Counted from the first letter of the stretch, positions 1,283-33,314 are shown. The stretch is DNA of 34,520 nt from Rhodothermales bacterium (GCA_034439735.1 JAWXAX010000043.1:1-34520); one strand, 5' to 3'. Notes: generated from the sequence alone by a model not told the origin. Made by a program: numbers and translations.

Positions 1283-3448
1283 ATGCGCATCGCTCTACAA
1301 ATCCTTCCGTGGCTCATTCTTTCCGGTGCAACAATGCTGGCCGGATGTTCGGGATCAACCGATCCCTATGCCAACTGGAGCATGTACGAGGGCGACGCCG
1401 GCGCGGCGCATTACTCTTCGCTGACGCAGATCGATCGAACGAACGTAAAAGACCTCGAGATCGCCTGGACCTACCCCGCCGGATCGACCAGCCCCGCCGG
1501 CTTCAGCCCTCTCGTCGTCGACCGCACGATGTATGTCGTGGCCGACAGCGGCGCCCTCGTCGCGCTGGACGCCGGCACGGGCGAGCAACTGTGGGTCCAT
1601 GGCTTCCCGGGAGCCGGCCGGGGTGCTGGGGGCCGGGGCCTGTTGTACTGGGAAAGTGACGATCGGTCCGACCGCCGGCTTTTTGTCCCCCGCGGCCAGA
1701 ACCTCTTCGCCATCGACGCCTCCACCGGCGAGGTGATCTCGTCGTTTGGAGCAGACGGCGCTGTAGATGTGCGGGAGGGGATTCAACGCGATCCCGAAAA
1801 GATCCGAGCCGCCCCCTCGTCTCCGGGTATTGTCTTTGAGAACCTGGTGATCCTGGGCTCCGGCCCCGGCGAAGGGTACGGCTCAGGGCCGGGCGACATC
1901 CGGGCCTGGGATACCCGAACGGGCGAACTCGCCTGGGTCTTCCACACCATCCCCCACCCCGGTGAATACGGCTACGACAGCTGGGAGGACCCCGAGGTCT
2001 GGAAAACAGCCGGCGGCGCCAACGTCTGGGGCGGCATGAGCGTCGATGTCGAACGCAGCATCCTCTACCTGCCTCTGGGATCGGCGACGTACGACTTTTA
2101 CGGCGCGGACCGGCTGGGCGCCAACCTGTTCGCCAATTCGCTGGTGGCGGTAGATGCCCGCACGGGCGAGCGGATCTGGCACTACCAGACCGTCCATCAC
2201 GACCTGTGGGATTTGGACCTGGCGGCCGCGCCGGTGCTCATGACGGTGCAGCATGAGGGCGAGGAATTGGACATCGTTGTCGCCGCCGGCAAGACGGGGT
2301 ATCTGTACGTGTTTGATCGGGTAACCGGCGAGCCGCTGTGGCCGATCGAGGAGGTGCCGGTCCCCGCCTCGGACATGCCCGGCGAGGAGGCTTGGCCCAC
2401 CCAGCCGATTCCCACCTGGCCCGAGCCGTTCAGCGTGCTTTCGTTCACCGTAGACGATATCAACCCGTACATCCCTCAGAAGGAGCAGGACAGCCTCCGA
2501 CAATACGTGGCCAGCATGAACAACAAGGGGGTTTTCACGCCCCCGAGCACCACGCCCACGATGCAGATGCCGGGGAACGGCGGAGGCGCCAACTGGGGCA
2601 CCACGGCGGCCGACCCGGTCAATGCGATCTTCTATGTGCTCAATAGAAACTTCCCGACCGTCCTCACCCTCGAACGTGACATACCCGGCGTACCGGGAGC
2701 GGACGCCTTCCCGCCGGAACGCGGGGCGTTTGTCTACCGCCAGAACTGCCAGCTGTGCCATATGGAGAATCGGGAGGGCCAGCCGCCGCTCATTCCATCT
2801 ATGGTTGGTGTGATGGACCGGCTCAAACCCACGGAATTCATCCAGCAGGTGCGTCAGGGCAAGGGCACGATGCCGGCGTTCCCCGACCTGTCCGATCAGG
2901 AGATTTCCCACCTGATTTCGTATCTCTCGTTCCCAGAATTTGCGCCACCACCACCGCCACCAACGACGACCCCGGCTACCGGCGTGGAAGAGGGCCCCGT
3001 ACGTTACAAGACGGGTTACGGTTACTTCCTGGCCAGCATCGGCTACGCCATCAAACCGCCCTGGGCGACGATCACGGCGTACGACATGCATACGGGGGCG
3101 AAGCAGTGGGAGCGCCCGGTGGGTGAAGTGGATAGCCTGGCGGCCCGTGGTATCACGGACACCGGTTCGGTCGGCCTTCGCGGCGGCCCGTCCGTCACCG
3201 CCGGCGGGCTCCTCTTCCTGGCGACGGACCGGAAATTCAGGGCCTACGACAAGGACACCGGCGAGGAGGTCTGGACCTACGAATTGCCCGGGCCCGTTCA
3301 GGGAATCCCGGCCATCTATGAGGTCGACGGAAAGCAGTACGTGGCCATTGGCGCGGGGCCGGGCGGGGGCGGCCTCCTCGCGGCGTTGATGGGCGGGTCC
3401 CAGGTGCCGCTACCGCGGAATTACGTGGCGTTTGCGTTGCCGGAATGA
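1283..3448 (+). CDS. PQQ-dependent dehydrogenase lipoprotein with inserted cytochrome c domain (copy 1)
   Basis: A 721-residue quinoprotein alcohol/sugar dehydrogenase homologue. The N-terminus is a lipoprotein signal with lipobox LAGC (Cys22). The remainder is a PQQ-type propeller with repeated W-motifs (DAGTGEQLW, DARTGERIWHY, DKDTGEEVWTY). HHDLWDLDL at 305-313 and the following KTGYLYVFDR resemble the active-site Asp and Lys segments of membrane glucose dehydrogenase-type enzymes. A haem c site CQLCH is at 489-493, with likely axial Met530 in GTMPAFP; this domain is inserted before the last two blades and not appended at the end. Electrons probably pass from PQQ to the haem and on to periplasmic cytochromes. 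It is the only copy on the plus strand and is more diverged from the three minus-strand copies than they are from one another. The substrate cannot be read from sequence. Confidence 0.9.
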   Translation: MRIALQILPWLILSGATMLAGCSGSTDPYANWSMYEGDAGAAHYSSLTQIDRTNVKDLEIAWTYPAGSTSPAGFSPLVVDRTMYVVADSGALVALDAGTGEQLWVHGFPGAGRGAGGRGLLYWESDDRSDRRLFVPRGQNLFAIDASTGEVISSFGADGAVDVREGIQRDPEKIRAAPSSPGIVFENLVILGSGPGEGYGSGPGDIRAWDTRTGELAWVFHTIPHPGEYGYDSWEDPEVWKTAGGANVWGGMSVDVERSILYLPLGSATYDFYGADRLGANLFANSLVAVDARTGERIWHYQTVHHDLWDLDLAAAPVLMTVQHEGEELDIVVAAGKTGYLYVFDRVTGEPLWPIEEVPVPASDMPGEEAWPTQPIPTWPEPFSVLSFTVDDINPYIPQKEQDSLRQYVASMNNKGVFTPPSTTPTMQMPGNGGGANWGTTAADPVNAIFYVLNRNFPTVLTLERDIPGVPGADAFPPERGAFVYRQNCQLCHMENREGQPPLIPSMVGVMDRLKPTEFIQQVRQGKGTMPAFPDLSDQEISHLISYLSFPEFAPPPPPPTTTPATGVEEGPVRYKTGYGYFLASIGYAIKPPWATITAYDMHTGAKQWERPVGEVDSLAARGITDTGSVGLRGGPSVTAGGLLFLATDRKFRAYDKDTGEEVWTYELPGPVQGIPAIYEVDGKQYVAIGAGPGGGGLLAALMGGSQVPLPRNYVAFALPE

Positions 3449-3525: not shown

Positions 3526-5055
3526 TCACACCATCCCCTTCAGATGATCCGACAGCCGGAGCGTCATCGCCAGCAGCGTCAGTGTGGGGTTGGCGGCGCC
3601 GGCGGTGGGGAAAACGGCCGAGCCGGCGACGTGCAGGTTGGATAGGCCGTGAACGGTGCAGTTCACGTCGACCACCCCTTGCTTGGGGTCGGGATCCATG
3701 CGGGTGGTGCCCATGTGGTGCCAGCCGGCGCCGAGGTTGGCCGGCCACATCGGCTCGTCTTTGAGGAGCCAGTCGCTGAGCTGGACGCGGCCGATGCCGG
3801 CCTTGCCGACTTCGGCGGCGAAGGTCTCGTGCAGCTGGCGGATCGAGCGTTTCTCGAGTTCACCGATTCGCCAGTCCAGCTTCACGCGCGGCATCCCGAG
3901 GGCGTCCCGCTGGTCGCTGAGCATGATCCGGGAGTCGGGATTGGGCGCCTGTTCCATGCGGACCTGCATCACATACTCGGTGCGCGGCGCCTCCTGGGTC
4001 GGAGCGCCGGCCTGGTTTTGCACCCGCGCGAGCCGTTCCTGCCGATCGCGGACGTTCTGGACAGCATCCGCCGAAAATCCGGTGACGCCGGCGGCCGCGT
4101 TCTGGGCGGCCTGCGCCCGTAGCGCCGAGGTGCCGTTGAGAATCCGGAGCTCCCGCTGTTTTGCCGCCGTGATGGCGACTTCCGCGAAGTGTCTCGTGAC
4201 ACCGAACTGGGTAGTGTAGAGCTTCATCGGGAGCGGCCGCGTAAGGATCATGCGCGCCGCGATGAGTTCCAGATGCTCCATGAAGTACCGGCCGACGACG
4301 TCCGCGTCGTTGCCGAGGCCTTTCGGGGCCTGCGTGTTCGCGGCCAGGAGCAGCCGCGCATTCTGGATGGCGCCCCCGGCGAGGACGAAGTGGCGGGCAC
4401 GCACGGTGTGCGCGTTGCCGTCGTGCGAACGGATTTCAACGTGTTCGACCCGCGAGACCGCCTCGTTGGTCCGGATGTCGCCGACGTTGGCGTAGGTGAG
4501 CAGGTGGATGTTCTCCGACTGCACGATCGCGTCGCGGTACACGTTGCCGAACCGGGTAGGCGGGCTCAGTTGCCACATCTTCGCCCAGACGGACGACTTG
4601 TCGAGGGGCAGTTCGACGAGTTCGGGGTCCTCGGCCTGATAGACCGCGGGATCGAACGTGTCCCTACCAACTTCCACATAGGGACAGGCGCGCCTGTAAA
4701 ACGGCTCGAGGTCGGCCCGGGAGATAGGCCATCCGCTGTTCGGCACCCAGTCGCGCTTCTCGAAATCCTGCGGGTCGTAGTCGGACGACCAGCCGCCCCA
4801 GTGGCCGGTCGTCCCACCGAAATAGTGCAGGCGCGAGGATTGGAGCGGGAAATAGGGCTGACCGACACTTTCGCCGGTATAGAGATCCTGCATGGCGTAC
4901 TCCACATCGAAGCCGCCGCCTTCGAGCAGGATGACGCGCCGGCCAGCGTTCTGCCACTCGAGGGCCATGCTGATGCCGGCCGCGCCGGCGCCGATGATGC
5001 AGAGATCGCCTTCGATGATGCTGCCGTTTTCGAGTGTGCGTGCGTCGGTGTGCAT
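3526..5055 (-). CDS. GMC family FAD-dependent oxidoreductase
   Basis: A 509-residue flavoprotein of the glucose-methanol-choline family, which oxidises hydroxyl groups of sugars and alcohols. The FAD-binding GAGAAG motif is at 22-27, followed by the acidic strand end VILLEGG. GGTTGHWGGW resembles the conserved segment of gluconate 2-dehydrogenase and pyranose-type flavoproteins. The C-terminal GMC domain has GWHHMGTTRMD (His446/His447) and GAANPTLTLLA (Asn489), the usual catalytic His/Asn pair. It is the last gene of a seven-gene operon, 23 bp after a DUF1080/FG-GAP gene. The N-terminus has no signal peptide or twin-arginine motif, which is odd because every other gene in the operon encodes an exported protein. 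It may act in the cytoplasm on imported product, or be exported with a partner. The exact substrate is unknown. Confidence 0.9.
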   Translation of the reverse strand: MHTDARTLENGSIIEGDLCIIGAGAAGISMALEWQNAGRRVILLEGGGFDVEYAMQDLYTGESVGQPYFPLQSSRLHYFGGTTGHWGGWSSDYDPQDFEKRDWVPNSGWPISRADLEPFYRRACPYVEVGRDTFDPAVYQAEDPELVELPLDKSSVWAKMWQLSPPTRFGNVYRDAIVQSENIHLLTYANVGDIRTNEAVSRVEHVEIRSHDGNAHTVRARHFVLAGGAIQNARLLLAANTQAPKGLGNDADVVGRYFMEHLELIAARMILTRPLPMKLYTTQFGVTRHFAEVAITAAKQRELRILNGTSALRAQAAQNAAAGVTGFSADAVQNVRDRQERLARVQNQAGAPTQEAPRTEYVMQVRMEQAPNPDSRIMLSDQRDALGMPRVKLDWRIGELEKRSIRQLHETFAAEVGKAGIGRVQLSDWLLKDEPMWPANLGAGWHHMGTTRMDPDPKQGVVDVNCTVHGLSNLHVAGSAVFPTAGAANPTLTLLAMTLRLSDHLKGMV

Positions 5056-5078
5056 GGAGGTATCGGGTTAACGGAGTG

Positions 5079-6959
5079 TTACGGCTTGCCCCATAAGATA
5101 AAGGTCCCACGGGTACCCGAAGTCAGGATGTCGATCGCACCGTCTCCGTTGATATCCTTCGCCTTGGCTTCCGAGCCGACGCCGGACTTGTTATGGACGA
5201 GATGGGGCACAAACACGACCCCGCCCGGGGCATCGGGCCGGCGGACGGTTTCGTACCAGTAGGTCACGGCCTCGCCGTCGGGGTCCGGATCGACCAACGT
5301 GTCCAGGTGGGCCCAGTGGCGTTTGCCGGTGACGAAGTCCATGATCCCGTCGCGGTTGATGTCCGCCAGGATGGCGCCGGCGTGGAGTTCGGAGAACGTG
5401 ACGTCGCCGACGTTTTTCGTCGAGAAGTCTCCCATGATGTGATGTTTCTCGAACGAGATGGCGCCGGCGGCGTTGCGCTGCTGCTCGTACCAGGCCAGCC
5501 CCCAGCCGTGGGCGCTGAGGCTGGTGATGACATCGTTCAGGCCGTCGCCGTTGAAGTCATACACCGAGATGGCGCCACCGCCGCCGATGAACGAAGCCGA
5601 CTCGCCGAAGAGCACCTCGTGGTGTTTCCAGTTGCCGCTGCCGGGGTTGGTCGCCGGCTGCTCCCACCATCCGGTGGCCTGGAGGACGTCCGTCCGGCCA
5701 TCGCCGTTGACATCGCCGGCGCCGACGCCGTGGATGCTGCAGCCGTTGAACTCAAACAGGGTGGCGGACACTTTGGTGAGGCGCCAGGGCCCGGTCGGGT
5801 TCGCGGCGTCGGGCTCGCCGTAGGAGACGCGGCTTTCGCGATCCACATACACCATTTCGTCTTCGCCGTCGCTATCGATATCGGCCTGGATGGTGATCTC
5901 GCTGCAGACATCGGGGACGACCAGGACGCGGTCCCAGCGCCGGCTTTCGCCCTGCGGGTTGATGAACATGGCGAGTTGGCGCATTTCGGACACGATCAAG
6001 TCGGTCCAGCCGTCGCCCGTCCAGTCCTTCGCAAAGGCGAGCATGTTCGGCGTGTATTCGACGCCGGGGTTAAACGTACGGGAAGGGAAATACTCGCGCC
6101 GGCGACGGAAGTCGGGGCCGAGGTAGTAGTACGGGCCCGCCACGAGGTCCTTCACCCCGTCCCCATCGATGTCGCCCGCATCGACCCCCCAGGAGTAATG
6201 AAACTCCGCGACATGTTGCCTGGAAAAGCGGTCGGAGACGTGCTCGGGCGCGACCGTGTAATGCATCCAATCCTTGACCGCGACATCCTCGAAGCGGACG
6301 CTGCCGGAACCCACGTACAGGGCGATGGGACCATAGGCTTGCGGCATGGTCTCACGTGGGGCGAAGATGCCGATGGCGGCGGACTCCGGCGTCTGCGGCA
6401 CGGCCGTGCCGCCGGCGATGGACCGGCGTACACCATTCAAATGGTTCTGGATCTCATTGGCACGCACAAAGATCTCGATGGTATTCCAGGCGTCGCGCGT
6501 GAGGGGGCTCGGGGCGTTCCGCACGCCGTCATCCTCCCGGGGCTCGCGGGCCAGTTCGCGGGTCAGGATGGCGCCGTTCACATCGAGCGTGACGCGGAAA
6601 GGGGCGACTTCGTCCTCGCGGAGCGAGATCAGGATGCCGCTCATCCCACCGTCCGTTTTTTCCAGGCGAAGGAGCACGCCGGCATCACAGGCGCCGGTGC
6701 ACTGGAAGCGAGAGAACACGGAGACGTCTTCGTAGGAGCGGTCGAATACCAGCAGGCCGCCGGCGCTGCCGCGGGCGGTGCCGGTGATGGTGCCGTTTTG
6801 CGCGCTCCAGTCGGCCGTGCCCAGCGGCTGCCATGCCGTTAGCTGCGAACCCTCGAAGAGGTAGTCCGGAATAAAGTCCGGCGCGGGGCTCTGCTGCGCA
6901 AGAGCCGGCGTGGCAACGAGCAGCGCGGCGGCGAAGAGCCAGGTCTGACGATGAAACAT
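5079..6959 (-). CDS. Exported DUF1080-like domain plus FG-GAP/VCBS seven-blade propeller protein (copy 1)
   Basis: The 626-residue product starts with a Sec signal peptide ending ALA-QQS. Residues about 27-230 resemble the 3-keto-disaccharide hydrolase/lyase domain DUF1080 (concanavalin-like fold): FEGSQLTAWQ, NGTITGT, a Cys pair in CTGACDAGVLLR, WNTIEI, LNGVRR, and a closing IALYVGSGSVRFEDVAVKD. Residues about 240-626 hold seven calcium-binding FG-GAP loops (DIDGDGVKD, DWTGDGWTD, DIDSDGEDE, DVNGDGRTD, DFNGDGLND, DINRDGIMD, DINGDGAID), enough for a complete integrin-type propeller. A weak GAGG lies upstream of the ATG. It sits between a quinoprotein gene and the GMC gene. The N-terminal domain may bind or cleave oxidised sugars, with the propeller as a binding scaffold; this is inference from family resemblance, since no catalytic residue was identified. 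Confidence 0.85.
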   Translation of the reverse strand: MFHRQTWLFAAALLVATPALAQQSPAPDFIPDYLFEGSQLTAWQPLGTADWSAQNGTITGTARGSAGGLLVFDRSYEDVSVFSRFQCTGACDAGVLLRLEKTDGGMSGILISLREDEVAPFRVTLDVNGAILTRELAREPREDDGVRNAPSPLTRDAWNTIEIFVRANEIQNHLNGVRRSIAGGTAVPQTPESAAIGIFAPRETMPQAYGPIALYVGSGSVRFEDVAVKDWMHYTVAPEHVSDRFSRQHVAEFHYSWGVDAGDIDGDGVKDLVAGPYYYLGPDFRRRREYFPSRTFNPGVEYTPNMLAFAKDWTGDGWTDLIVSEMRQLAMFINPQGESRRWDRVLVVPDVCSEITIQADIDSDGEDEMVYVDRESRVSYGEPDAANPTGPWRLTKVSATLFEFNGCSIHGVGAGDVNGDGRTDVLQATGWWEQPATNPGSGNWKHHEVLFGESASFIGGGGAISVYDFNGDGLNDVITSLSAHGWGLAWYEQQRNAAGAISFEKHHIMGDFSTKNVGDVTFSELHAGAILADINRDGIMDFVTGKRHWAHLDTLVDPDPDGEAVTYWYETVRRPDAPGGVVFVPHLVHNKSGVGSEAKAKDINGDGAIDILTSGTRGTFILWGKP

Positions 6960-7022
6960 GAGAGGCCTCGTTTGGGGTTGGTGCTGTTTGTGAATCGGAT
7001 CGGTGGAAATAGCTGCCCCCGA

Positions 7023-9182
7023 TCAGGGCAACGCAAAGGCGATATAACTGGGGTTTCGGACGGTCCCATCGGCGGGCGGAGCGCTCCGCCCCGCCGTGGC
7101 CACCACGGCTACGTATTGCCGGCCCTCCCACGCATAGATGGAAGGAATGCCTTCTCCGAGGCCCGGCAGCGGGTGGGACCACAGCTGGGCGCCGGTCACC
7201 CGGTCGAAGGCGTAGAGCCTGTCGGATGCCGACTGGAAGATCAGGTCACCGGCGGTCACAGACGGCCCTCCCCGCACGCGCATACCGGCGCCGGTATCGG
7301 TGATGCCCTCCTGGGCCAACCGCTTCACTTCGCCGACCGGCGTTACCCATTTGATCTCGCCCGTATTCATGTCGTAGGCGGTGAGGCGCAGCCACGGGGG
7401 TTTGATAGCCTGTACGCCCTCGGAATCGACGATGTGGATCCACCCGCTCTGGTACCGTTCGGGCTCTTTCGCGCCCGGCGCGGCGTTGGCGCCGGCGGTG
7501 AGCGCCAGCGCCGGGTTGGCCAGGTAAGCCACCAGCGCCGACATCTCCATTTCCGTCAGATGTGGCATGGGCGGCATCTGGTTACGCCCGCCGCGGATTA
7601 CCGCGTTCAGGTCCACGTGCGAGAGCCGATCGGTAACGCCGACCAGCGAGGCGATCCCCCCGGCGGGTTGTCCTTCCAGATTCGGCTGATGGCAGATCTG
7701 GCAATTCGCCTGATAGACGGCCTGGCCCCGATCGACGATGGTGCCTCCGGTGCCAACCACGCCGGCCGTGATCGGCTCCAGCTTGAGGACGGAAGGCAGG
7801 TTATCTCCCAGCACATAAAACGTCCCATCGCGCGGGTCGGCGGCGGTGGATCCCCAGTTGGCGCCGCCCCGGTTGCCGGGGATCTGGAGCGTGGCCTGCG
7901 TGCTGGGCGGGGTGTACAGTCCGGTGACCACCATCGAGCGGAGGAGGGTCTGGAGCGAGTCGCGGTCGGCCGGCGAGAGGTGGGGGTTCAGGTCGTTCTC
8001 GGTATCCCAGGCCAACGGGACAAACGGGGGCGGTTTCGTGGGGAACGGCTGCGTCGGCCAGGCCTGCTCGCCGGGCATCACGGAAGGGGGTACCGGGCGT
8101 TCCTCGATGGGCCAGAGCGGCTCGCCGGTCGCGCGATTGAAGGCGAAGACCATCCCGGTTTTGGTAGCCTGGGCAACGATGTCGAGCGGCTTGCCGTCGC
8201 GCTCGATCGTCAGCAGAACGGGCGTGGCGGCGAGGTCGTAGTCCCACAGGTCGTGATGGGTCGTCTGGAAGTGCCAGATCCGCTCCCCGGTGCGGGCGTT
8301 CAGCGCCACGAGCGAGTTGGCGAACAGGTTTTCGCCGTGACGGTCGACGCCGTAGAAGTCGTAGTTGGCGGATCCCAGCGGGATGTAGACGATGCCGCGT
8401 TCGGTATCCACGCTTAATCCGCCCCACGCGTTGGCGCCCCCGCCTTTGTCCGAGCGCCCTGCCGGCCAGGTGTCATAGCCATGTTCGCCGGGTTTGGGCA
8501 GGGTGTGGAAGATCCAGGCCTGCCGGCCGGTGCGGACGTCGAACGCGCGGATGTGTCCGGGGCCGGCCATGTACCCCTCACCCGGCGACGAACCCAGGAT
8601 GACGAGGTCTTCGAACACGGTCCCAGGCGACGAGGAGGTCGCGCGGGCCATCAATTCAGGCAGAATACCGAGGCCGTGCCGCAGATCGACGACGCCCTTT
8701 TCGCCAAACGAGGGCACAAAGTCCCCGGTGAGGGCATTGAGCGCGACCAACTGGTAGCTGCCCCGGTAAAAAAGCAGGCGACGATCCGACCGGTCTGTAT
8801 TCTCCCAGTACATAAACCCGCGCCCGCCCATGCGCGCGCCGGGCGAGCCTGGGTGGAACCAGATTGGCTGGCCCGTGCCGGCGTGCAGCGCCGCCACCGA
8901 GCCGCTGTCTCCGACGACGTACATCAGCGAGTCGACGACGATGGGATTGTGGATGGCGGCGTCGGGCGTCTCGTACGTCCAGGCGATCGTGAGTTGATCG
9001 ACATTGGATCGATCGATCTGATCAAGCGCCGAGAAGCTGGATGCCCCCGGCTCTCCCTCGAAGCGCGACCACCGGTAGAAACGTTCATCGAGCGCTCGTT
9101 CCGGGGCGCAGGAAGCCATCCACAGCGTTATGAATATCAGGGTAAGCCTGTACGACATCATCAGGAGGCGATCCGCGATCAT
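7023..9182 (-). CDS. PQQ-dependent dehydrogenase lipoprotein with inserted cytochrome c domain (copy 2)
   Basis: This 719-residue product is closely related to copies 3 and 4. The lipobox Cys is residue 25 (LWMASC) if the ATG at 9182 is used; ATGs at 9161 and 9158 give a shorter, more typical lipoprotein signal and are real alternatives, and none has a good Shine-Dalgarno sequence. Active-site-like HHDLWDYDLAATPVL and KTGMVFAFNRATGEPLWPIEERPVP are intact. The haem c motif CQICH is at 494-498 in a segment reading YQANCQICH, with a probable axial Met in NQMPPMP. It begins 29 bp after the stop of copy 3, so the pair looks like a tandem duplication. Predicted role: periplasmic oxidation of a sugar or alcohol with transfer of electrons to its own haem. 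Confidence 0.9.
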   Translation of the reverse strand: MIADRLLMMSYRLTLIFITLWMASCAPERALDERFYRWSRFEGEPGASSFSALDQIDRSNVDQLTIAWTYETPDAAIHNPIVVDSLMYVVGDSGSVAALHAGTGQPIWFHPGSPGARMGGRGFMYWENTDRSDRRLLFYRGSYQLVALNALTGDFVPSFGEKGVVDLRHGLGILPELMARATSSSPGTVFEDLVILGSSPGEGYMAGPGHIRAFDVRTGRQAWIFHTLPKPGEHGYDTWPAGRSDKGGGANAWGGLSVDTERGIVYIPLGSANYDFYGVDRHGENLFANSLVALNARTGERIWHFQTTHHDLWDYDLAATPVLLTIERDGKPLDIVAQATKTGMVFAFNRATGEPLWPIEERPVPPSVMPGEQAWPTQPFPTKPPPFVPLAWDTENDLNPHLSPADRDSLQTLLRSMVVTGLYTPPSTQATLQIPGNRGGANWGSTAADPRDGTFYVLGDNLPSVLKLEPITAGVVGTGGTIVDRGQAVYQANCQICHQPNLEGQPAGGIASLVGVTDRLSHVDLNAVIRGGRNQMPPMPHLTEMEMSALVAYLANPALALTAGANAAPGAKEPERYQSGWIHIVDSEGVQAIKPPWLRLTAYDMNTGEIKWVTPVGEVKRLAQEGITDTGAGMRVRGGPSVTAGDLIFQSASDRLYAFDRVTGAQLWSHPLPGLGEGIPSIYAWEGRQYVAVVATAGRSAPPADGTVRNPSYIAFALP

Positions 9183-9211
9183 AAGGTAAGTCTTGTTATC
9201 AAAGGGGTCGA

Positions 9212-11377
9212 TCAGGGGGATTCAGGGAGGGCGTACGCGATGTACTTCGGCACCCGTGGCTGTGCCGGCGCCGGCTGCCCGAAGCCGCCGGCCGTGGCGA
9301 TGGCCATCACGTATTGGCGTCCGTTCACCTCGTACACGGTGGGGATGCCCTCGCCGATGCCCGAGAGCGGCGTGCGCCACAACAGCGCGCCGGTGTCGCT
9401 ATCGTGCGCCCAGAACGTCTCGCCGGCCATCTGGAAGATCAGCCCGCCGGCCGTAATGGCCGGACCGCCGCGCAGCCAGTTGACCGCTCCCGTGCCCGTG
9501 ACGCCCTGCTCGACCAGATGCGGCACTTCGCCCAGCGGGGCCTGCCACTTGATCTCGCCCGTGTTCATATCGTAGGCCGTGAATCGGAACCATGGCGGCT
9601 TGATCACCGGCACCCCTTTGCTGTCGAGGACATGGTTCCGGCCGCTCTGGTACCGCTGCGGGCCTTCCGGCCGGCCCGTGGTCAGGTCCTGCCCGGTTGT
9701 GAGGGCCAGATCGGGATTGGCGAGATAAGCCTGAAGCGCGTCGAATTCCAGGTCGGACAGCCGCGGGAACGCCGGCATGAGGCCCCGGCCGCCTTTGATC
9801 GACAGCTTGAGTGCATCGTGGCTGAGCCGATCAGTCACGCCGACAAGCGACGGGATCCCGCTGGTGGGCGCGCCCTGCAGGTTCTCGCGGTGGCAGATCT
9901 GGCAGTTTACCTGGTAGATGGCCTGGCCCTGATCGAACATGGACTCGCCCGTGCCGACGGCGCCGGCGGTGATCGGCTCGAGCTTCAGCACGGACGGCAT
10001 GTTGTAGCTGAGAACGAAGAACGTCCCGTCGCGCGGGTCGCCGGCGGTCGAGGCGAAGTTGGCCCCGCCGCGGTTGCCTGGCACTTGCAGGGTGGGCCGC
10101 GTGTCCGGCGGGGTGAACACTCCTTTGTAGACCATGGAGCGCACAAACGCCTCGAGCGAATCCCGGTCGTGGGCGTCCATGTGCGGGTTGAAGTCGTCGA
10201 TGGATAACGTCAGCGGGATAAACGGCGCCGGTTTCGTGGGGAAAGGCTGCGTGGGCCAGGCCTGCTCGCCCGGCATGTCCGACGCCGGCACCGGGCGCTC
10301 CTCGATGGGCCAGAGGGGCTCCCCGGTCTCGCGGTTGAAGGCAAACACCTGCCCGGTCTTTGTCGCCTGCGCGACGATGTCGAGCGGCCGGCCGTCGCGC
10401 TGGATGGTCAGCAGGACGGGCGTGGCGGTGAGGTCGTAGTCCCACAAGTCATGATGCACGGTCTGGAAGTGCCAGATCCGCTCTCCCGTGCGGGCGTTGA
10501 GCGCTACGAGGCTGTTCGCGAAGAGGTTCTGGCCATGGCGATCCACGCCGTAGAAGTCGTAGTTGGCGGAGCCGAGCGGGATGTAGGCGATCCCGCGTTC
10601 GGTGTCGACGCTCATCCCGCCCCAGGCATTGGCGCCGCCGGCTTCGTCCGACCGCCCCGGCGGCCAGGTATCGTACCCGAACTGACCCGGCTTCGGGAGG
10701 GTGTGGAAGATCCAGACCTGCCGGCCCGTCACGACGTCGAACGCGCGGATGTGCCCCGGGCCGGCGTTATACCCTTCGCCCGGCGACGACCCGAGGATGA
10801 TCAGGTTCTCGAAGATGACGCCCGGACTGGGCGACGACGCGCGCTCCACGCGCAGCGGGTCGATGTCGAGCCCCGGGCGCAGATCCACCATCCCACTGTC
10901 ACCGAACGTGGTGATCAGCTCCCCCGTGAGGGCGTCGATCGCCGACAGGGTGTTGGTGTTGGCGTACATCAGGATCCTGCGATCCGTGCGGTCTTCGTTC
11001 TCCCAATACGTCATCCCGTGTTCGAAGTACCCCCGCGGCAGACCCATCAACGACACGGCATTCGGACTACGATGCTCCCAGAGGATCCGCCCCGTGCCGG
11101 CGTGTAATGCTACGACGGCGTTCGAATCCCCAAAGACGTACATCGTCGAATCGACCACGATCGGGTTGATGGAGGCGGCGCCCTCGGTCTCATAGGTCCA
11201 GGCGACCTCTAGCTGCTGCACGTTGGTCCGATTGATCTGGTCTAGCGCCGAAAAATGGGTCGCGCCAGGCTCTGCTTCATACCGCGCCCAGCGATAAAAG
11301 CGCTCGTCGAGCTCGTTGGACGATCCGGAGCAGGCGGATACGAAGATGAAGAGGGCGAAGAGAGGGCTGCGGGGCAT
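9212..11377 (-). CDS. PQQ-dependent dehydrogenase lipoprotein with inserted cytochrome c domain (copy 3)
   Basis: A 721-residue quinoprotein whose start codon directly abuts the stop codon of the preceding gene (stop at 11378-11380, ATG at 11375-11377), suggesting translational coupling. It has a very short lipoprotein signal with lipobox VSAC (Cys16). W-motifs, HHDLWDYDLTATPVL and KTGQVFAFNRETGEPLWPIEERPVP are intact. The haem c site CQICH is at 492-496, with a likely axial Met in GLMPAFP. The segment after the haem domain returns to propeller sequence (ITAYDMNTGEIKW-like, then DSDTGALLW), so the cytochrome is an insertion. It is most similar to copies 2 and 4. Divergence between copies suggests different substrates, but no pocket residue can be assigned from sequence alone. 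Confidence 0.92.
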   Translation of the reverse strand: MPRSPLFALFIFVSACSGSSNELDERFYRWARYEAEPGATHFSALDQINRTNVQQLEVAWTYETEGAASINPIVVDSTMYVFGDSNAVVALHAGTGRILWEHRSPNAVSLMGLPRGYFEHGMTYWENEDRTDRRILMYANTNTLSAIDALTGELITTFGDSGMVDLRPGLDIDPLRVERASSPSPGVIFENLIILGSSPGEGYNAGPGHIRAFDVVTGRQVWIFHTLPKPGQFGYDTWPPGRSDEAGGANAWGGMSVDTERGIAYIPLGSANYDFYGVDRHGQNLFANSLVALNARTGERIWHFQTVHHDLWDYDLTATPVLLTIQRDGRPLDIVAQATKTGQVFAFNRETGEPLWPIEERPVPASDMPGEQAWPTQPFPTKPAPFIPLTLSIDDFNPHMDAHDRDSLEAFVRSMVYKGVFTPPDTRPTLQVPGNRGGANFASTAGDPRDGTFFVLSYNMPSVLKLEPITAGAVGTGESMFDQGQAIYQVNCQICHRENLQGAPTSGIPSLVGVTDRLSHDALKLSIKGGRGLMPAFPRLSDLEFDALQAYLANPDLALTTGQDLTTGRPEGPQRYQSGRNHVLDSKGVPVIKPPWFRFTAYDMNTGEIKWQAPLGEVPHLVEQGVTGTGAVNWLRGGPAITAGGLIFQMAGETFWAHDSDTGALLWRTPLSGIGEGIPTVYEVNGRQYVMAIATAGGFGQPAPAQPRVPKYIAYALPESP

Positions 11378-13384
11378 TTATTTACTGATAAACACATTTG
11401 TCCCCCGACGGGCGGAGGTCAGGATGTCCGGGAGGCCGTCGTTGTTGAGGTCGGCCGAGATCATGTCAGTCCCGACGCCCGAGTTGTTGTTGACCAGTTC
11501 GGGGACGAAGCGGGCCTGGCCGTTTGCGCGGACGAGTCGGAACCAGTAGACGACGGGAGCGCCGAAGGCATCCGGATCCGTCGGGTTTTCGCCGAAGTGC
11601 GCCCACCAGCGTTTGCCGGTCACGATATCCTGCAGGCCGTCGCCATCGATGTCGGCCAGCGTGAGGGCGTGTAGGGCGGCGAAGACGACGCCGTTGTTGG
11701 GGTTGGCGAAGTCGTCCATGATCATGTGCCGTTCGAAGGAGATCGTGCCGGCGGCGTCGCGCTTCTGCTCGAACCACGCCAGGCCGAAGCCGTGACCTTC
11801 GAGGCTGGTGACGACATCGTTCAGCCCGTCGCCGTTGACGTCGTAGGCGAACGCGCGGGCGCCGCCACCGCCGCCCTGCTGAGAGCCCCAGCGACCAAAC
11901 GTCTCGGGGTGGTACGTCCACGGCTGCCCGTTCGGGGTAGCCGGCTGCTGCCACCAGCCATACGCCTGGATGAGATCCTTGCGCCCATCCCCATCCACAT
12001 CGCCGGTACCCAGGCCGTGGGCGTACATCGCCCCCCAGGGCCCTTTTTCGGTGACCGCGTGGAAAGTCCACATCTGCGTCGGGTCCGGCCCGGGCTCGGC
12101 GTAGCCGATGAAGCCGCCGTCGGTATAGACGTACTCGAGCTGGCCGTCGCCGTCGATGTCGTCCGCGAAGGCGACCTCGTTATCCACCGACGGGATCACC
12201 ATGTGTTTGGCCCAGCGGTGCACAGCGGCGTCTTTGCCGGGGTTCACGAAGAGGAACCCGGGCCGGCCCGGTTCGCCCGTATGCAGGACGTCCGGGTAGC
12301 CGTCGCCGGTAAAGTCGCCGGCGGAGGCGAGGAGCGGATCGGGGTACGAGGTGGGGGAATAGGTTCGTGGGACATATAGCTCATGACGCGTCGTGAATTC
12401 GGGGCCGATGAAGATATTCGGGCCGGCGATGACGTCCATATTCCCATCCAGATTCACGTCGGCGGCCGTGACGGCTTCGCTGTAGAACATGGCTTCCAGC
12501 TGCTGTTTCCGGAAGCGGGGGGATGTCACTTCGATCGGGTGGGCGTTTTTGACGTCCATCGGCTTGACGCCCACGCCGCGGAAGCGGATCTCGGTGCCGG
12601 CGGGGCCGGCGATGAAGAGGCCGACCTGCCCGTGCGCCGTGCCCGCGGCGGCGGTGACGCCGGCCTCGACCGTGCCGGCGCCATTCAACAACCCGCGCAG
12701 CGACGTGCCCACGGAGTGGATTTCGACGCGGTTCCAGCTGTTATCGAGCTTCAACGGTTCGATGCCCTGTTTGCCGCCGAGTTGCCCGGGGTACAGCAAG
12801 CCAAGACCAGGGTACTCGGCCCGGAAGTCGACCATGCTCATCGGGTACGGACTCGGGTTCGGCTCGACGACCGTGCGCTCGACCAATTTACCGGTCGCAT
12901 CCAGCACGATGTGATGACCGCCTACCTTGCCCTCGCCAAACGAATACAAGATGCCCGTCGTCCGCTCCCCTTCACTCTCCGCGTGGATCACGATCCCCGG
13001 CTCACAACCCGGCCCGCAGCGAAACGACGCCATCGCCGCCAGGTCCTGGCTGGTGATGTCCAGCAGCAGCAACGCGCTCCCGCCCTGCCCTACGACGCCC
13101 ACGTACTCCCCGGCCTGTACCCGCCAGCGTCCGCTCTGAGGCCGCACACCGTCCATGCTCGTGGCATCGAAGGTTCGGGCCGGCAAAAACGTCTGCACAT
13201 ACGCCGCGTCGAGGGTCGGCGCGAGGGCGGCGCTGGGCGATGGCGGCTCGGCCGCCTGCTGACCCAGCAGCTGGGCGAGAGGGATCGTTTCCTCCTCTTT
13301 TTTAGTGTCCTGGGCAAGTGCCAGAGCGGGTGTCAGGAGCGCGCAGAGCGCGAAAAGGACCCAACGGGGTAGGCATGATTTCAT
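11378..13384 (-). CDS. Exported DUF1080-like domain plus FG-GAP/VCBS propeller protein (copy 2, diverged)
   Basis: A 668-residue protein with signal peptide ending ALALA-QDT and an extra charged linker (KKEEETIPLAQLLGQ, residues about 28-50) absent from copies 1 and 3. The N-terminal lectin-like region keeps the DUF1080 pattern with a Cys pair (CGPGCEPGIVIH), a WNRVEIHSVG segment and LNGAGT. Seven FG-GAP calcium loops follow: DVNLDGNMD, DFTGDGYPD, DIDGDGQLE, DVDGDGRKD, DVNGDGLND, DIDGDGLQD and DLNNDGLPD. The blade sequence GWWQQPA matches GWWEQPA of the sister proteins. It lies 39 bp after copy 3 and directly abuts the quinoprotein gene downstream. Being the most diverged of the three, it may bind a different ligand. 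Confidence 0.85.
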   Translation of the reverse strand: MKSCLPRWVLFALCALLTPALALAQDTKKEEETIPLAQLLGQQAAEPPSPSAALAPTLDAAYVQTFLPARTFDATSMDGVRPQSGRWRVQAGEYVGVVGQGGSALLLLDITSQDLAAMASFRCGPGCEPGIVIHAESEGERTTGILYSFGEGKVGGHHIVLDATGKLVERTVVEPNPSPYPMSMVDFRAEYPGLGLLYPGQLGGKQGIEPLKLDNSWNRVEIHSVGTSLRGLLNGAGTVEAGVTAAAGTAHGQVGLFIAGPAGTEIRFRGVGVKPMDVKNAHPIEVTSPRFRKQQLEAMFYSEAVTAADVNLDGNMDVIAGPNIFIGPEFTTRHELYVPRTYSPTSYPDPLLASAGDFTGDGYPDVLHTGEPGRPGFLFVNPGKDAAVHRWAKHMVIPSVDNEVAFADDIDGDGQLEYVYTDGGFIGYAEPGPDPTQMWTFHAVTEKGPWGAMYAHGLGTGDVDGDGRKDLIQAYGWWQQPATPNGQPWTYHPETFGRWGSQQGGGGGARAFAYDVNGDGLNDVVTSLEGHGFGLAWFEQKRDAAGTISFERHMIMDDFANPNNGVVFAALHALTLADIDGDGLQDIVTGKRWWAHFGENPTDPDAFGAPVVYWFRLVRANGQARFVPELVNNNSGVGTDMISADLNNDGLPDILTSARRGTNVFISK

Positions 13385-13423
13385 GACGGACGCTCGTAAG
13401 AACCGTAAAGCAAAAACCGACGA

Positions 13424-15367
13424 TCACAACGTGCCCCAGAACACAAACGTGCCCCGGCTGCCGGACGTAACGATGTCCAGGGAGCCATCGCCGTCGATGT
13501 CGATGACTTTGACCTCGGAGCCGACGCCGGACTTATTGTGGATGAGGCGCGGGACAAATTCCACCCCGCCGGCGGCGCCGGGGCTCCGCACGGTCTGGTA
13601 CCAATAGATGACTCCTTCCCCATCGGGATCGGGGTCCGAGAAAGCATCGAGGTGGGACCAGTGGCGTTTGCCGGTTACGAAGTCCAACACGCCGTCGTGG
13701 TTGATGTCGGCCAGGGTGGCGCCGGAGTGGACCTGCGAGAACGTGACCCCGCCGGCGTTTTTCGTCGAAAAATCCCCCATGATGAGGTGCTCGACGAACG
13801 TGATCTTGCCGGCGGCGTCGCGCTGCTGCTCGTACCAGGCGAGGCCCCACCCGTGGGCGGAGAGGCTGGTGACGACGTCGTTGAGGCCGTCGCCGTTGAA
13901 GTCGTACACGGCGATCTCGGCGCCGCCCGGATGCTGGGGCGAGCGGGTCAGCCGGCCGAAATGGGCTTCGTGGTAGATCCACATCCCCGTATCCGCGCCG
14001 GCGGCGGGCTGCTCCCACCATCCGCGCGCCTGGAGGATGTCGACCCGGCCGTCGCCGTTGACGTCGCCGGTGCCCACGCCGTGCGTATTGCAGCCAGCGA
14101 CGACCGGCTGGGAGATCTTATGGACCTTCCACGCGCCGTTCAGGTTTGCGGGGTCAGGTTCGGCGTAGGCCACGCGACCGTCGTTGGCTACATAGACGAT
14201 CTCGGGCTTTCCGTCAGCGTCGACATCGGCGCGGACCGCCGTTTCGCTGCACACGTCTGGCAGCGCCTCAACCCGATCCCAGAAGCGTTTCTCGCCTTGC
14301 GGGTTCAGGTAGAGCACGAGCGGCCGGCGTTCGGTGACGAGGGCATCGATCCATCCGTCCTCGTTCCAGTCGTTCGCAAACGTCAACATGTCGTTGATGT
14401 ACTCGAGTCCCGGGTTGAATACCCGCGCCTCGTAATATTCGCGGCGGACGCCGAAGTCAGGGCCGAGGTAATAAAACGGACCCGAGATGAGGTCCTGCAC
14501 GCCGTCGCGGTTGACGTCCGCCACGTCGGCGCCCCAGCCGTAATAAAACTCATTCACCTGCTGAACCCGGAAGTCGCTCGAGGTCTGTTCAGGCTCAACC
14601 GTCAGCGTGTGCAGATCTTTCACCGACACGTCATCGAACTCGACCTTCCCGGAGCCGACGTACAGGGCGATCGGGCCGTAACCATGGACGTACGTCACAG
14701 GGATGATGACGGCTCCCCCGAACTCGGGCGCTTCCGCCTGTGGGAAATCCTGCGCCGTACCACCTCGGATGGCGTTGCGGACGTTGTTGAGATGGTTGAA
14801 GATGGCATTGCCGTCGACAAAGACCTCAAGCGTATTCCAGGTATCCGCTTTCGCCAGCACGGGCGCGGACATCGCCGCGGTGGCTGCATCGAGCACCGGG
14901 CTGGAAGACATCGCCGGTTGGTTGCCGCCGCCTCCGCCGCCCTGCGGGCCCCGGGCGGACGTTTTAGCGGTGATCTTCCCATTCGCGTCCAGCGTCACCC
15001 GGTAGGGGGCGACGGTTTCGCCCTCGATTGCCACAAAAATCCCCTTCATGCCCGTCGGCGTTTCCTCGGCGCGCAGCAGGATGCCGGCGTCGCACGGGCC
15101 GGCGCAGCGGAAACGGGTGAAGACGGCGGCATTTTGATACGATTCATCCAGCATCAGCCACCCGCCGTCTCGCCCGGCCGTCCCGGTGATCGTCCCAAAC
15201 TCGGCCCGCCACTGGGCCTGGCCCACCGGCTGCCAGCCGGCAAGGTCGGAGCCATAAAAGGTATAATCCGGGATAAAATCCGGCGCCGGGCTCTGTTGGG
15301 CCCGAGCCGGGGCCGCCAGTACCAGGCTCAGTGCGGCGAGCATGCCGGCGGTTTTCAGAAGCACCAT
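13424..15367 (-). CDS. Exported DUF1080-like domain plus FG-GAP/VCBS seven-blade propeller protein (copy 3)
   Basis: A 647-residue close paralogue of the protein at 5079-6959; both mature proteins begin QQSPAPDFIPDY. The signal peptide ends PARA. The DUF1080-like domain spans about 27-255 (FYGSDLAGWQP, CAGPCDAGILLR, WNTLEVFVDGN, closing IALYVGSGKVEFDDVSVKD) and contains a Gly-rich insertion (GPQGGGGGGNQ) absent from copy 1. Seven FG-GAP loops follow, from DVNRDGVQD to DIDGDGSLD. AGAGG lies 8-12 bases before the ATG. It is the second gene of the operon, 94 bp after the first quinoprotein gene. The strong similarity to copy 1 suggests that a quinoprotein plus FG-GAP module was duplicated as a unit. 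Confidence 0.87.
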   Translation of the reverse strand: MVLLKTAGMLAALSLVLAAPARAQQSPAPDFIPDYTFYGSDLAGWQPVGQAQWRAEFGTITGTAGRDGGWLMLDESYQNAAVFTRFRCAGPCDAGILLRAEETPTGMKGIFVAIEGETVAPYRVTLDANGKITAKTSARGPQGGGGGGNQPAMSSSPVLDAATAAMSAPVLAKADTWNTLEVFVDGNAIFNHLNNVRNAIRGGTAQDFPQAEAPEFGGAVIIPVTYVHGYGPIALYVGSGKVEFDDVSVKDLHTLTVEPEQTSSDFRVQQVNEFYYGWGADVADVNRDGVQDLISGPFYYLGPDFGVRREYYEARVFNPGLEYINDMLTFANDWNEDGWIDALVTERRPLVLYLNPQGEKRFWDRVEALPDVCSETAVRADVDADGKPEIVYVANDGRVAYAEPDPANLNGAWKVHKISQPVVAGCNTHGVGTGDVNGDGRVDILQARGWWEQPAAGADTGMWIYHEAHFGRLTRSPQHPGGAEIAVYDFNGDGLNDVVTSLSAHGWGLAWYEQQRDAAGKITFVEHLIMGDFSTKNAGGVTFSQVHSGATLADINHDGVLDFVTGKRHWSHLDAFSDPDPDGEGVIYWYQTVRSPGAAGGVEFVPRLIHNKSGVGSEVKVIDIDGDGSLDIVTSGSRGTFVFWGTL

Positions 15368-15461
15368 GACAGACCTCTAGGGATGATTCATGCACCGGCC
15401 GGCGCAAAGCGCTTCCGCCGGAGGGGAGCCTCAAAAGAGGCGGGACGTTCGGGGCTGGAAA

Positions 15462-17633
15462 TTACCGGGGGAGGGCAAAAGCAACGTAGCTGGGGCTACG
15501 CGGCGTGGTCAGCCGGGGAGCGCCCTGCCCGCCCTGCGTCGCCGATATCACGACAAACTGCCGGCCGCCTACCTGGTAGACGGCCGGAATGCCTTCACCC
15601 ACTCCGGGCAAAGACGTCGACCAGAGCACGGCCCCGGTCTCGCGATCATGGGCCCACAACTTTTCGCCGGCGGACACAAAGATCAGCTCGCCGGCCGTGA
15701 TGGTTGGCCCTCCGCGGACCCAGACTGTAGCGCCGGTGTTCAGGATGCCTTTTTCGACCAGGTGTGGCACTTCGCCGACAGGCACCTGCCAATCAATGTC
15801 GCCCGTGTTCATGTCGTACGCGGTGAGGCGGAACCACGGGGGCTGGATCACGGGTATGCCCTTGCTATCGAGAATGTGGTTCCATCCGCTCTGATACCGT
15901 GGCGGCGCCTCGGGCCGGCCCACGAGGTTCTGGGTAGAGGCGAGCTCCTGGCCGGTGGTGAGCGCGAGTTCCGGGTTGGCCAGGTACGCGAGGAGCGCGT
16001 CGTACTGGCCGTCGGTCATCTGCGGGAACGCCGGCATCAGGCCCTGCCCTACCAGCAGCTGCTGCTTCATGTCGTCGTGGCTCAGCCGCTCCGTCACCCC
16101 AACGAGCGACGGTATGCCGCCGAGGGGTTGCCCCTGCCGGTTGGCGCCGTGGCAGAGCTGGCAGTTCGCCAGATAAAACGCCTGCCCCTGATCGAAGGGG
16201 GATCCGCCCGTACCGACCGCGCCCGGGTAGATGGGCTCGAGCTTGAGGATGGACGGCATGTTGTAGCTGAGGACAAAAAACGTCCCGTCCCGAGGGTCGC
16301 CGGCGGTCGATCCCCAGTTGGCCCCACCTCGGTTGCCGGGCGACTGGAGCGTGGGCCGCGTATCCGGAGGTGTGAACATCCCTTTGTACACCATCGAGCG
16401 AACAAGCGCTTCCAGGGAGTCGCGGTCGCGGGTGTCCATGTGGGGGTTGAAGTCCTCGATGGCCAGGGACTGGGGGATAAATGGCGCCGGCTTCGTAGGG
16501 AACGGCTGCGTGGGCCAGGGCTGCTCGCCCGGCATGTCGGACCCCGGCACAGGCCGCTCTTCAATCGGCCAGAGCGGCTCGCCCGTCTCCCGGTTGAAGG
16601 CGAACACAAAGCCCGTCTTCGTCGCCAGCGACACGATGTCGAGCGGCCGACCCTCCCGCTCGATGGTCAGCAGGACCGGCGTGGCGGTGAGGTCGTAGTC
16701 CCACAGGTCGTGGTGGACCGTCTGGAAGTGCCATTTCCGCGCGCCGGTGCGGGCGTCGAGGGCGACGAGCGAGTTGGCAAACAGGTTTTCGCCGTGACGA
16801 TCGACGCCGTAGAAGTCGTAGTTGGCGGATCCGAGCGGGACGTACACGATGCCCCGGTGTTCATCCAGGCTTATCCCGCCCCACGCGTTGGCGCCTCCGG
16901 CTTCATCGGAGCGGCCCGGGGGCCAGGTATCGTAGCCGAACTGTCCCGGCTTGGGGAGGGTATGGAAGATCCACGCCTGCTGGCCGGTGCGGATGTCGAA
17001 GCCGCGGATGTGCCCCGGGCCGGCGGCGTAGCCCTCACCTGGCGCGGAGCCCATGATGTAGAGGTCTTCGAAGACGACGCCCGGAACCGGCGCCGTGGCG
17101 CGGTGCATGCGTAGCGGGTCGATATCCAGCCCGTTCCTCAGATCCACCTTGCCCCCGTCACCAAAGGAAGGGATGGATTCTCCCGTATCTGCATCGATCG
17201 CGACCAGGAAGTAACTGCCTCGAAAGAACAAGATGCGTCTCTCGGACCGGTCGGCGCTTTCCCAGTAGGCGATTCCGTGTTCAACGCGGCCAGTAGGCAG
17301 TGTGCTGGTATGGACCCACAACTCAGCGCCAGTGCCGGCGTGCAGGGCTACGACGGCTTTTTCGTCACCAAAGACGTACATCGTCGAGTCGATCACGATT
17401 GGGTTAAACGCTTCGACGCCTGAAGACGTGTACCGCCACACCTCCTGCAATTGCCCAACGTTTGTTCGATCGATCTGATCTAGCGAAGAGAAATGTGTGG
17501 CGCCCGGCTCGGCTTCGTAGCGCGTCCAACGGCTGTATTTCTCATCCAACCGGGTCCCTTGCGGGTTACATGCGGACAGCAACACCGCGGCAAGTACCAG
17601 AACGCAGAGGGGAAAGCGTACGGAGTGAAACAT
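15462..17633 (-). CDS. PQQ-dependent dehydrogenase lipoprotein with inserted cytochrome c domain (copy 4, first gene of operon)
   Basis: The open frame extends to 18236, but the ATG at 17633 is chosen because it starts a canonical lipoprotein signal (MFHSVRF, hydrophobic stretch, LLSAC with Cys22) and the upstream part overlaps the AraC gene on the same strand. The resulting 723-residue length matches its paralogues. HHDLWDYDLTATPVL and KTGFVFAFNRETGEPLWPIEERPVP form the expected active-site segments. The haem c motif CQLCH is at 491-495, with axial Met likely in GLMPAFPQM. It is the first gene of the seven-gene operon. A conserved element at 17694-17762 lies 60 bp upstream, and an AraC regulator gene is just beyond that, so expression is probably inducible. 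Confidence 0.92.
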   Translation of the reverse strand: MFHSVRFPLCVLVLAAVLLSACNPQGTRLDEKYSRWTRYEAEPGATHFSSLDQIDRTNVGQLQEVWRYTSSGVEAFNPIVIDSTMYVFGDEKAVVALHAGTGAELWVHTSTLPTGRVEHGIAYWESADRSERRILFFRGSYFLVAIDADTGESIPSFGDGGKVDLRNGLDIDPLRMHRATAPVPGVVFEDLYIMGSAPGEGYAAGPGHIRGFDIRTGQQAWIFHTLPKPGQFGYDTWPPGRSDEAGGANAWGGISLDEHRGIVYVPLGSANYDFYGVDRHGENLFANSLVALDARTGARKWHFQTVHHDLWDYDLTATPVLLTIEREGRPLDIVSLATKTGFVFAFNRETGEPLWPIEERPVPGSDMPGEQPWPTQPFPTKPAPFIPQSLAIEDFNPHMDTRDRDSLEALVRSMVYKGMFTPPDTRPTLQSPGNRGGANWGSTAGDPRDGTFFVLSYNMPSILKLEPIYPGAVGTGGSPFDQGQAFYLANCQLCHGANRQGQPLGGIPSLVGVTERLSHDDMKQQLLVGQGLMPAFPQMTDGQYDALLAYLANPELALTTGQELASTQNLVGRPEAPPRYQSGWNHILDSKGIPVIQPPWFRLTAYDMNTGDIDWQVPVGEVPHLVEKGILNTGATVWVRGGPTITAGELIFVSAGEKLWAHDRETGAVLWSTSLPGVGEGIPAVYQVGGRQFVVISATQGGQGAPRLTTPRSPSYVAFALPR

Positions 17634-17770: not shown

Positions 17771-18649
17771 CTAGCGATTGACGTCGCGCCAGCCGCCCGG
17801 CGGGCTCCCAATCTCTCGCCGGAACAGCCGATTGAAGTGGGAAGGGTCCGCGTAGCCCACTTTCTCCGCGATTTCCGTGATCTTCATCTCGGTATGAACC
17901 AGCAGATGGCGGGCTTCCGTCATCCGGCGCCAGAGGATCCATTCCCCCACGGTGCGACCGGTAAGGCGGCGGATGGTGGTGGTGAGGTGCGCCGGCGAAT
18001 AATGGACAGCCTTCGCCACATCCGAGAGTGAAAGCGATTCCGCGTAGTGGGCGTCTATGACATCGAACACTTGTTTCAGGAGGGGCTGCGTATGGGCATG
18101 CGTCGAGGGATGCTCCAGTTCGGAGATGCGGCACACCTTCACCAGCAGCAACACCAGGAGGGCGTGGGCCGCCTCCTCCCAGTAGGATTCCTGCGAAAGC
18201 CGCTCCGCTTCGAGGGCACGCAGGGCGGACTCCCACTCGGGCCGGCGGTTGGGGGGCACGTTCAGGCGTAGTGGATTATGGCGGGATCCGAACGCAAATG
18301 GGGCCAGAAACGGGTGCTGAAGGATCCCCAGCAACGACCCTTTGACGTATTTAGCAGGGTCGAGGGCCGCGGCGGTAAATTCCAGGATCCAGATCGTCGC
18401 CTGCTTCTCCAACACGTCCTCCGCCCATTCATGCACCTGCCCCGGGGGGATGATCAGGAGGTCGCCGGCCGCGCTCTCCCACGTCAGATCCCCCAGCCGG
18501 TGGATGCCACCGGGCTCCTCAAAATAGACGATCTCAAAAAACCGATGCGCATGAGGGGTCAGAAAGCGCTCGGTGTGCTCTGGCTCCAGTCGGAAGGCGC
18601 GCACCTGCGGCCCGCCCATGGTGGGGGTAAAATTGAAGAGCTCTGGCAT
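17771..18649 (-). CDS. AraC family transcriptional regulator
   Basis: A 292-residue one-component regulator. Residues about 1-130 form a cupin-like ligand-binding domain (HAHRFFEIVYFEEPGGIHRL, then GDLLIIPPGQVHEW). The C-terminal ~100 residues are an AraC-type double helix-turn-helix: SLSDVAKAVHYSPAHLTTTIRRLTG is the first and ITEIAEKVGYADPSHFNRLFRREIG the second, the signature of the family. Such proteins usually activate nearby carbohydrate operons by binding direct repeats about 21 bp apart. The gene ends 9 bp before the conserved element and 137 bp before the first quinoprotein gene, on the same strand, so it is the obvious candidate regulator of that operon. The inducer is unknown but is probably a sugar or sugar derivative. 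Confidence 0.95.
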   Translation of the reverse strand: MPELFNFTPTMGGPQVRAFRLEPEHTERFLTPHAHRFFEIVYFEEPGGIHRLGDLTWESAAGDLLIIPPGQVHEWAEDVLEKQATIWILEFTAAALDPAKYVKGSLLGILQHPFLAPFAFGSRHNPLRLNVPPNRRPEWESALRALEAERLSQESYWEEAAHALLVLLLVKVCRISELEHPSTHAHTQPLLKQVFDVIDAHYAESLSLSDVAKAVHYSPAHLTTTIRRLTGRTVGEWILWRRMTEARHLLVHTEMKITEIAEKVGYADPSHFNRLFRREIGSPPGGWRDVNR

Positions 18650-24628: not shown

Positions 24629-24656
24629 GTCGGTACTCGTCAATCGGGGATGGGGG

Positions 24657-33152: not shown

Positions 33153-33314
33153 ACTGCGGGGAACGGTGGGTAACCAGAAAACGGTGGGCATGCGGCCACC
33201 CGGGTACGCGATCCTCTCATCGGGATCGAACCTTACCCAATCAACATACGGATTCGGCTACACTCCCAGGAGAAATGATTTTTGTTGACACATGGAGAAT
33301 CTTTATGCGGCGTT

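Follow-up and report, generated by a model that had tools for sequence, protein, structure and literature searches.

A Rhodothermales operon of quinohaemoproteins and DUF1080-like/FG-GAP fusions as a candidate oxidise-then-eliminate module

The quinohaemoprotein and fusion-protein operon

A contig of 34,520 nucleotides from a Rhodothermales bacterium (GCA_034439735.1, JAWXAX010000043.1:1-34520; contig C43 of a 5.13-Mb genome that is 98% complete), referred to as the window, carries a seven-gene operon on the minus strand at positions 3526 to 17633. It encodes quinohaemoproteins of the pyrroloquinoline quinone (PQQ) type, proteins that fuse a DUF1080-like domain to an FG-GAP propeller, and a glucose-methanol-choline (GMC) flavoprotein (Table 1). 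The genes are transcribed in the order PQQ4, FGc, FGb, PQQ3, PQQ2, FGa, and GMC, with gaps of 94, 39, 0, 29, 63, and 23 bp, respectively. An earlier note on this DNA had reported this same-strand order, gaps of 0 to 94 bp, and the PQQ, FG-GAP, and GMC families, all of which were confirmed, the families by Pfam. Promoter and terminator scans gave no signal above chance.

Table 1. Operon genes and other features of the window
Feature	Coordinates	Strand	Basis
PQQ4, quinohaemoprotein, lipoprotein signal LLSAC	15462..17633	-	PF01011 E 2e-169, Cytochrome_CBB3, CQLCH haem motif; signal read from sequence by eye
FGc, Sec signal, DUF1080-like/CBM66-like domain (about 27-262), 7-bladed FG-GAP propeller (263-647)	13424..15367	-	Pfam, AlphaFold2, fold searches
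FGb, FGc-like architecture, more diverged, 38% identical to FGc	11378..13384	-	PF06439 25.9 bits (below cut-off), FG-GAP_3 2e-21
PQQ3, quinohaemoprotein lipoprotein	9212..11377	-	PF01011 3.5e-173, CQICH
PQQ2, quinohaemoprotein, probable lipoprotein	7023..9182	-	PF01011 1e-170, CQICH
FGa, DUF1080-like/FG-GAP protein, 59% identical to FGc	5079..6959	-	PF06439 57.4 bits, FG-GAP_3 1.6e-22
GMC flavoprotein, without signal peptide	3526..5055	-	GMC_oxred_C 3.7e-24
PQQ1, fourth quinohaemoprotein lipoprotein, convergent with the GMC gene	1283..3448	+	PF01011 1e-171, haem c domain
AraC-type regulator, directly upstream of the operon	17771..18649	-	HTH_18 5.6e-25
Nuc_H_symport major facilitator superfamily (MFS) transporter	18834..20066	-	PF03825 1.4e-100
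TIM1, exported xylose-isomerase-like triosephosphate isomerase (TIM) barrel	26800..27762	-	PF01261 1e-21
TIM2, TIM1 paralogue	27768..28748	-	PF01261 5.6e-23
Aldehyde dehydrogenase	29952..31412	-	PF00171

Quinohaemoproteins of the window match the PQQ domain at E values of 1e-169 to 1e-173, and each contains a cytochrome c insertion (Cytochrome_CBB3, E values of 1e-11 to 1e-12) with an intact haem motif. PQQ1, which the earlier note did not mention, belongs to the same family and is 52 to 54% identical to the operon copies. Local duplication probably enlarged the operon, given the mutual identity of PQQ2, PQQ3, and PQQ4 (64 to 73%) and that of two of the FG-GAP proteins (59%). Across 22 relatives, the PQQ-site Asp and Lys are invariant and the haem CXXCH is nearly so; the Asp and Lys, D309 (within HHD) and K339 in PQQ4 numbering, are of the catalytic type and presumably have the roles of their motif counterparts in the Escherichia coli enzyme. 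The closest named family is glucose/quinate/shikimate dehydrogenase (TIGR03074, PF01011), with which the PQQ propeller and the catalytic Asp and Lys are shared. However, the window proteins score 358 to 371 bits against a cut-off of 833, their match begins only at model positions 152 to 156, past the N-terminal membrane domain, and they are lipoproteins without a membrane anchor domain in which haem c is inserted within the propeller sequence.

The host probably takes up PQQ from outside, since PqqC was not found in its genome by profile search. PqqC above the cut-off was also absent from 11 of 12 cassette-carrying genomes, and the search is validated by the remaining one, a Granulicella, which scored 320 bits. 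The PqqE model was uninformative: many radical SAM proteins were matched, all of them below the cut-off.

Export of the system, as proposed in the earlier note, is borne out in part. Lipoprotein signals are clear in PQQ1, PQQ3, and PQQ4 and plausible in PQQ2, and the FG-GAP proteins carry Sec signals (all read by eye), whereas the GMC protein has neither a signal peptide nor a twin-arginine translocation (Tat)-signal partner, and its export is unproven.

Within a sample of 395 genomes from the phylum, only this genome was found to carry the full-length fusion. A larger named collection contains about 27 fusions, in Acidobacteriota, Bacteroidota, and one Gemmatimonadetes metagenome-assembled genome, and the named Bacteroidota carriers led us to reject the idea that the fusion is unique to this genome. 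A PQQ-haem dehydrogenase gene of the same family occurs at 17 of 25 fusion loci, compared with 1 of 53 FG-GAP-only loci (Fisher P = 3e-10). When equal windows of ±5 kb were required, the figures were 12/17 and 0/23 (P = 1e-6). The core of PQQ and DUF1080-like/FG-GAP genes is thus conserved across phyla, in agreement with the proposal that the neighbourhood would recur elsewhere. The GMC type, which the earlier note had counted as part of the system, was found at none of the 25 fusion loci and lies outside this core. The literature searched contained nothing combining PQQ-dependent with DUF1080 or with FG-GAP, and the neighbourhood is apparently undescribed there.

Relatives of the fusion also occur in other contexts. 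A lone fourth DUF1080-like/FG-GAP fusion in the host genome (L057, G000:C39, 4580-6454) has regulators and a beta-lactamase-fold gene as neighbours but no accompanying PQQ gene. FG-GAP-only propeller relatives in other bacteria (L065, L069, and L148) have a Gfo/Idh oxidoreductase, MFS transporters, and in some cases DUF1080 genes in their vicinity.

The two domains of the fusion proteins

FG-GAP repeats are detected by Pfam in all three proteins (E values of 1e-21 to 1e-26). In the AlphaFold2 model of FGc (predicted local distance difference test [pLDDT] score of 82), the top structural match of the propeller, the best of 996 chains, is aldos-2-ulose dehydratase (Z 27.4, root mean square deviation [rmsd] 3.6, 333 residues); integrins and ADAM22-LGI1 match less well, at Z of about 23. 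E375, H429, H466, H505, E513, Q514, H547, K567, and R568 are identical in 28 of 28 fusions, and at least E375, H429, H505, H547, and K567 stay invariant when FG-GAP-only relatives are added. E375 and H429 lie six residues before the DxDxDG loop of their blades and H547 lies seven before, a register in which each of the three would open an inner strand and all would face the channel from the same side.

The substrates of aldos-2-ulose dehydratase are keto-sugars, and the enzyme acts after a GMC pyranose oxidase. Its propeller reportedly carries bound zinc, and it is reported to dehydrate these substrates by elimination. The likeness to the Phanerochaete enzyme (4a7k/4a7y/4a7z) lies in the seven-bladed VCBS/FG-GAP propeller fold. 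Unlike that enzyme, which was not listed by a profile search at E ≤ 10, the window proteins lack fused cupin domains and carry their lectin-like domain at the N terminus. A separate cupin gene occurs at three related loci; aldos-2-ulose dehydratase is absent among the best 60 matches listed for it.

The fused N-terminal domain is homologous to PF06439 (3keto-disac_hyd). Two of the three copies exceed the curated cut-off (57.4 and 55.4 versus 26.8 bits), FGb falls 0.9 bits below it, and all 28 fusion relatives match at E ≤ 0.01, as had been predicted for profile searches. The domain profile also matches BT3469, a two-domain DUF1080 protein (5e-20), and known 3-keto hydratases (1e-4 to 1e-5). 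However, alignment with ordinary DUF1080 copies from the same genome indicates that the polar YQxE and LQxH motifs conserved in those copies have been lost from the fused domain. For a model of the domain alone (pLDDT 81), CBM66 is the top match (Z 18.9, rmsd 2.2), with BT3469 close behind (Z 18.0), and solved 3-keto hydratases and eliminases fit less well (Z 14.8 to 16.5, rmsd 3.6 to 3.9). Cleavage by the fused DUF1080 domain is doubtful because of the lost motifs and the closeness of the fold to CBM66. The earlier note had the DUF1080-like proteins bind or cleave the oxidised product; by its structural match and invariant residues, the propeller is the better candidate for catalysis.

Associated genes in the window and at related loci

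The GMC protein has weak best matches to pyranose oxidase, and its nearest solved enzymes are flavin adenine dinucleotide (FAD)-dependent glucose and fructose dehydrogenases and pyranose oxidases. Relatives are present in 23 of the 395 genomes, and most are preceded by a small Tat-signal gene, a partner that the window copy lacks. At L279, L282, L284-L287, and L291-L295, this GMC subtype mostly follows a Tat-signal protein of roughly 130 amino acids with the look of an unnamed small subunit. No LacABC-type Tat-signal small subunit is present in the operon, and PF13618 genes occur in the genome only on contigs C122, C121, C35, and C170. LacA-like loci occur in the genome apart from the operon. 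On C35 (L155, G000:C35, 2238-5234), a LacA-like GMC gene accompanies a Tat-signal PF13618 subunit and a DUF1080 gene; the genome carries the classical flavin route as well.

A second operon in the same genome (L058, G000:C302, 3343-11627) encodes a two-domain DUF1080 protein, DUF6807, a quinohaemoprotein, an FG-GAP protein, and then a GMC protein 52% identical to that of the window. Of 40 neighbourhoods around C302-type quinoprotein genes in the phylum, 12 include ordinary DUF1080 genes, compared with 1 of 20 random ones (P = 0.02). The tightest case is L205, where the PQQ, cytochrome c, and DUF1080 genes overlap. The association is modest evidence, as many of the twelve neighbourhoods come from one family.

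Other partners at loci related to the window operon are a TonB receptor/SusD, SMP-30 (5 of 24 loci), exported TIM barrels, and a cupin accompanied by a transketolase-like gene. A Pfam-confirmed SusC/SusD pair is present at L083; none was found by Pfam scans of the window proteins. An HxH...D...H...E pattern resembling the one described for AtOGE (PMC10628242) is present in the TIM barrels of L074 and L091, and the L091 protein matches the inosose dehydratase IolE. In relatives, PQQ/DUF1080 genes adjoin a transporter that by eye resembles the Nuc_H_symport protein of the window (L194).

Window genes outside the operon may also be linked to it. TIM1 homologues adjoin PQQ/FG-GAP genes at L087, L088, and L125, and TIM1 and TIM2 possibly act in the same pathway as the operon. 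L072 combines FG-GAP/PQQ genes with an 80% identical copy of the aldehyde dehydrogenase, hinting that the genes at 25 to 32 kb share the pathway. Molybdenum-hydroxylase genes (Fer2, MoCo, and FAD subunits), a CoxG-like protein, and a 6-pyruvoyl-tetrahydropterin synthase homologue are encoded at 21188-24643, 32493-33191, and 33315-33776. Cyclase, UPF0261, and transaldolase genes lie between genes of this region on the same strand, and the region is a possible catabolic cluster. A 274-amino-acid open reading frame at 206-1030 (minus strand) has a signal-like start and no Pfam match and may encode an outer membrane barrel.

A candidate pathway and its alternatives

The idea that the operon oxidises and cleaves sugars is supported in outline. 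On a glycoside or related sugar, membrane-anchored lipoprotein quinohaemoproteins would turn a ring hydroxyl into a ketone, the paralogues perhaps serving different sugars or positions, and two electrons would pass from PQQ through the built-in haem c into the respiratory chain. The oxidised product would be captured by the CBM66/DUF1080-like domain of the secreted FG-GAP protein, and the seven-bladed propeller, with a bound metal, would catalyse elimination next to the ketone (dehydration or glycosidic C-O cleavage), as in aldos-2-ulose dehydratase. Products may then be processed by TIM-barrel proteins, the SMP-30 proteins of related loci, and cytosolic enzymes, with the GMC enzyme as a putative accessory. 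We infer the position of oxidation, the elimination chemistry, the metal, the substrate, and the role of the GMC protein. This periplasmic oxidise-then-eliminate module as a whole is put forward tentatively, with a likelihood somewhat short of even.

Several points weigh against it. FG-GAP propellers are often non-catalytic, and the likeness to aldos-2-ulose dehydratase is at the level of the fold, with no sequence match to that enzyme in a profile search even at E ≤ 10. The paired loci lack phylogenetic independence, most of the control loci belong to other phyla, and TIM and SMP-30 partners occur in a minority of loci. The bolder claim that the propeller and its carbohydrate-binding domain are a new bacterial class of metal-dependent keto-sugar lyase/dehydratase, forming with the quinohaemoproteins a PQQ-driven exported route of glycan cleavage across several phyla, is possible but less likely than not.

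The version in the earlier note, in which the quinoproteins make 3-keto-glycosides, the DUF1080 domain is the hydrolase or hydratase, and the propeller is a scaffold, is the least probable of the readings considered. It draws on the PF06439 match in every relative, the profile matches to BT3469 and the 3-keto hydratases, and the ordinary DUF1080 genes within PQQ operons; it is opposed by the loss of YQxE and LQxH, the CBM66-like fold, and the location of the strongest invariance in the propeller. If instead the quinoproteins oxidise C-1 of aldoses or oligosaccharides to lactones, like membrane glucose dehydrogenase, SMP-30 lactonases would open the products and the FG-GAP proteins would only bind glycan. 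The named family of the quinoproteins and the SMP-30 genes at related loci fit this alternative, but no SMP-30 was found in the window by Pfam scans, the invariant His/Glu/Lys set of the propeller is left unexplained, and a partner TIM barrel resembles a keto-cyclitol dehydratase rather than a lactone enzyme. This alternative is considered unlikely.

If the substrate is not a glycoside, the quinoproteins could instead oxidise an aromatic alcohol, anhydrosugar, or cyclitol, which the FG-GAP or TIM proteins would then dehydrate. In favour are the IolE match at L091, quinate as a substrate of this PQQ family (by its name), and the molybdenum-hydroxylase and cyclase-family genes in the window. The resemblance of the N-terminal domain to a carbohydrate-binding module, the SusD/TonB receptors near some loci, and the DUF1080 association argue against such a non-glycoside substrate, which is rather unlikely.

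Like the Caulobacter LacABC-type glycoside 3-dehydrogenase with its periplasmic DUF1080 3-keto-glycoside hydrolase (PMC9007349), the oxidise-then-eliminate module would combine periplasmic sugar oxidation with a subsequent DUF1080-type protein, and a GMC gene lies nearby. However, the Caulobacter oxidant is an FAD enzyme with a Tat small subunit, whereas a PQQ-haem c lipoprotein is proposed here, and the operon has a diverged DUF1080 domain joined to an FG-GAP propeller. The logic is also that of the oxidation-elimination-hydration pathways for levoglucosan (PMC7676230) and of AtOGE (PMC10628242), which likewise involve isomerase-annotated or TIM-barrel enzymes but start with a dehydrogenase linked to nicotinamide adenine dinucleotide (NAD) or flavin rather than with PQQ and exported proteins.

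Known oxidative glycan breakdown uses flavin or NAD enzymes, and a PQQ-haem version with exported proteins would couple cleavage to respiration. As most carriers tested lack PqqC above the cut-off, such a route would depend on PQQ from neighbours. If the module operates as proposed, part of the many quinoproteins of soil bacteria that have no assigned substrate would be explained, and a testable function would be available for an FG-GAP family that is widespread but currently annotated just as repeats.

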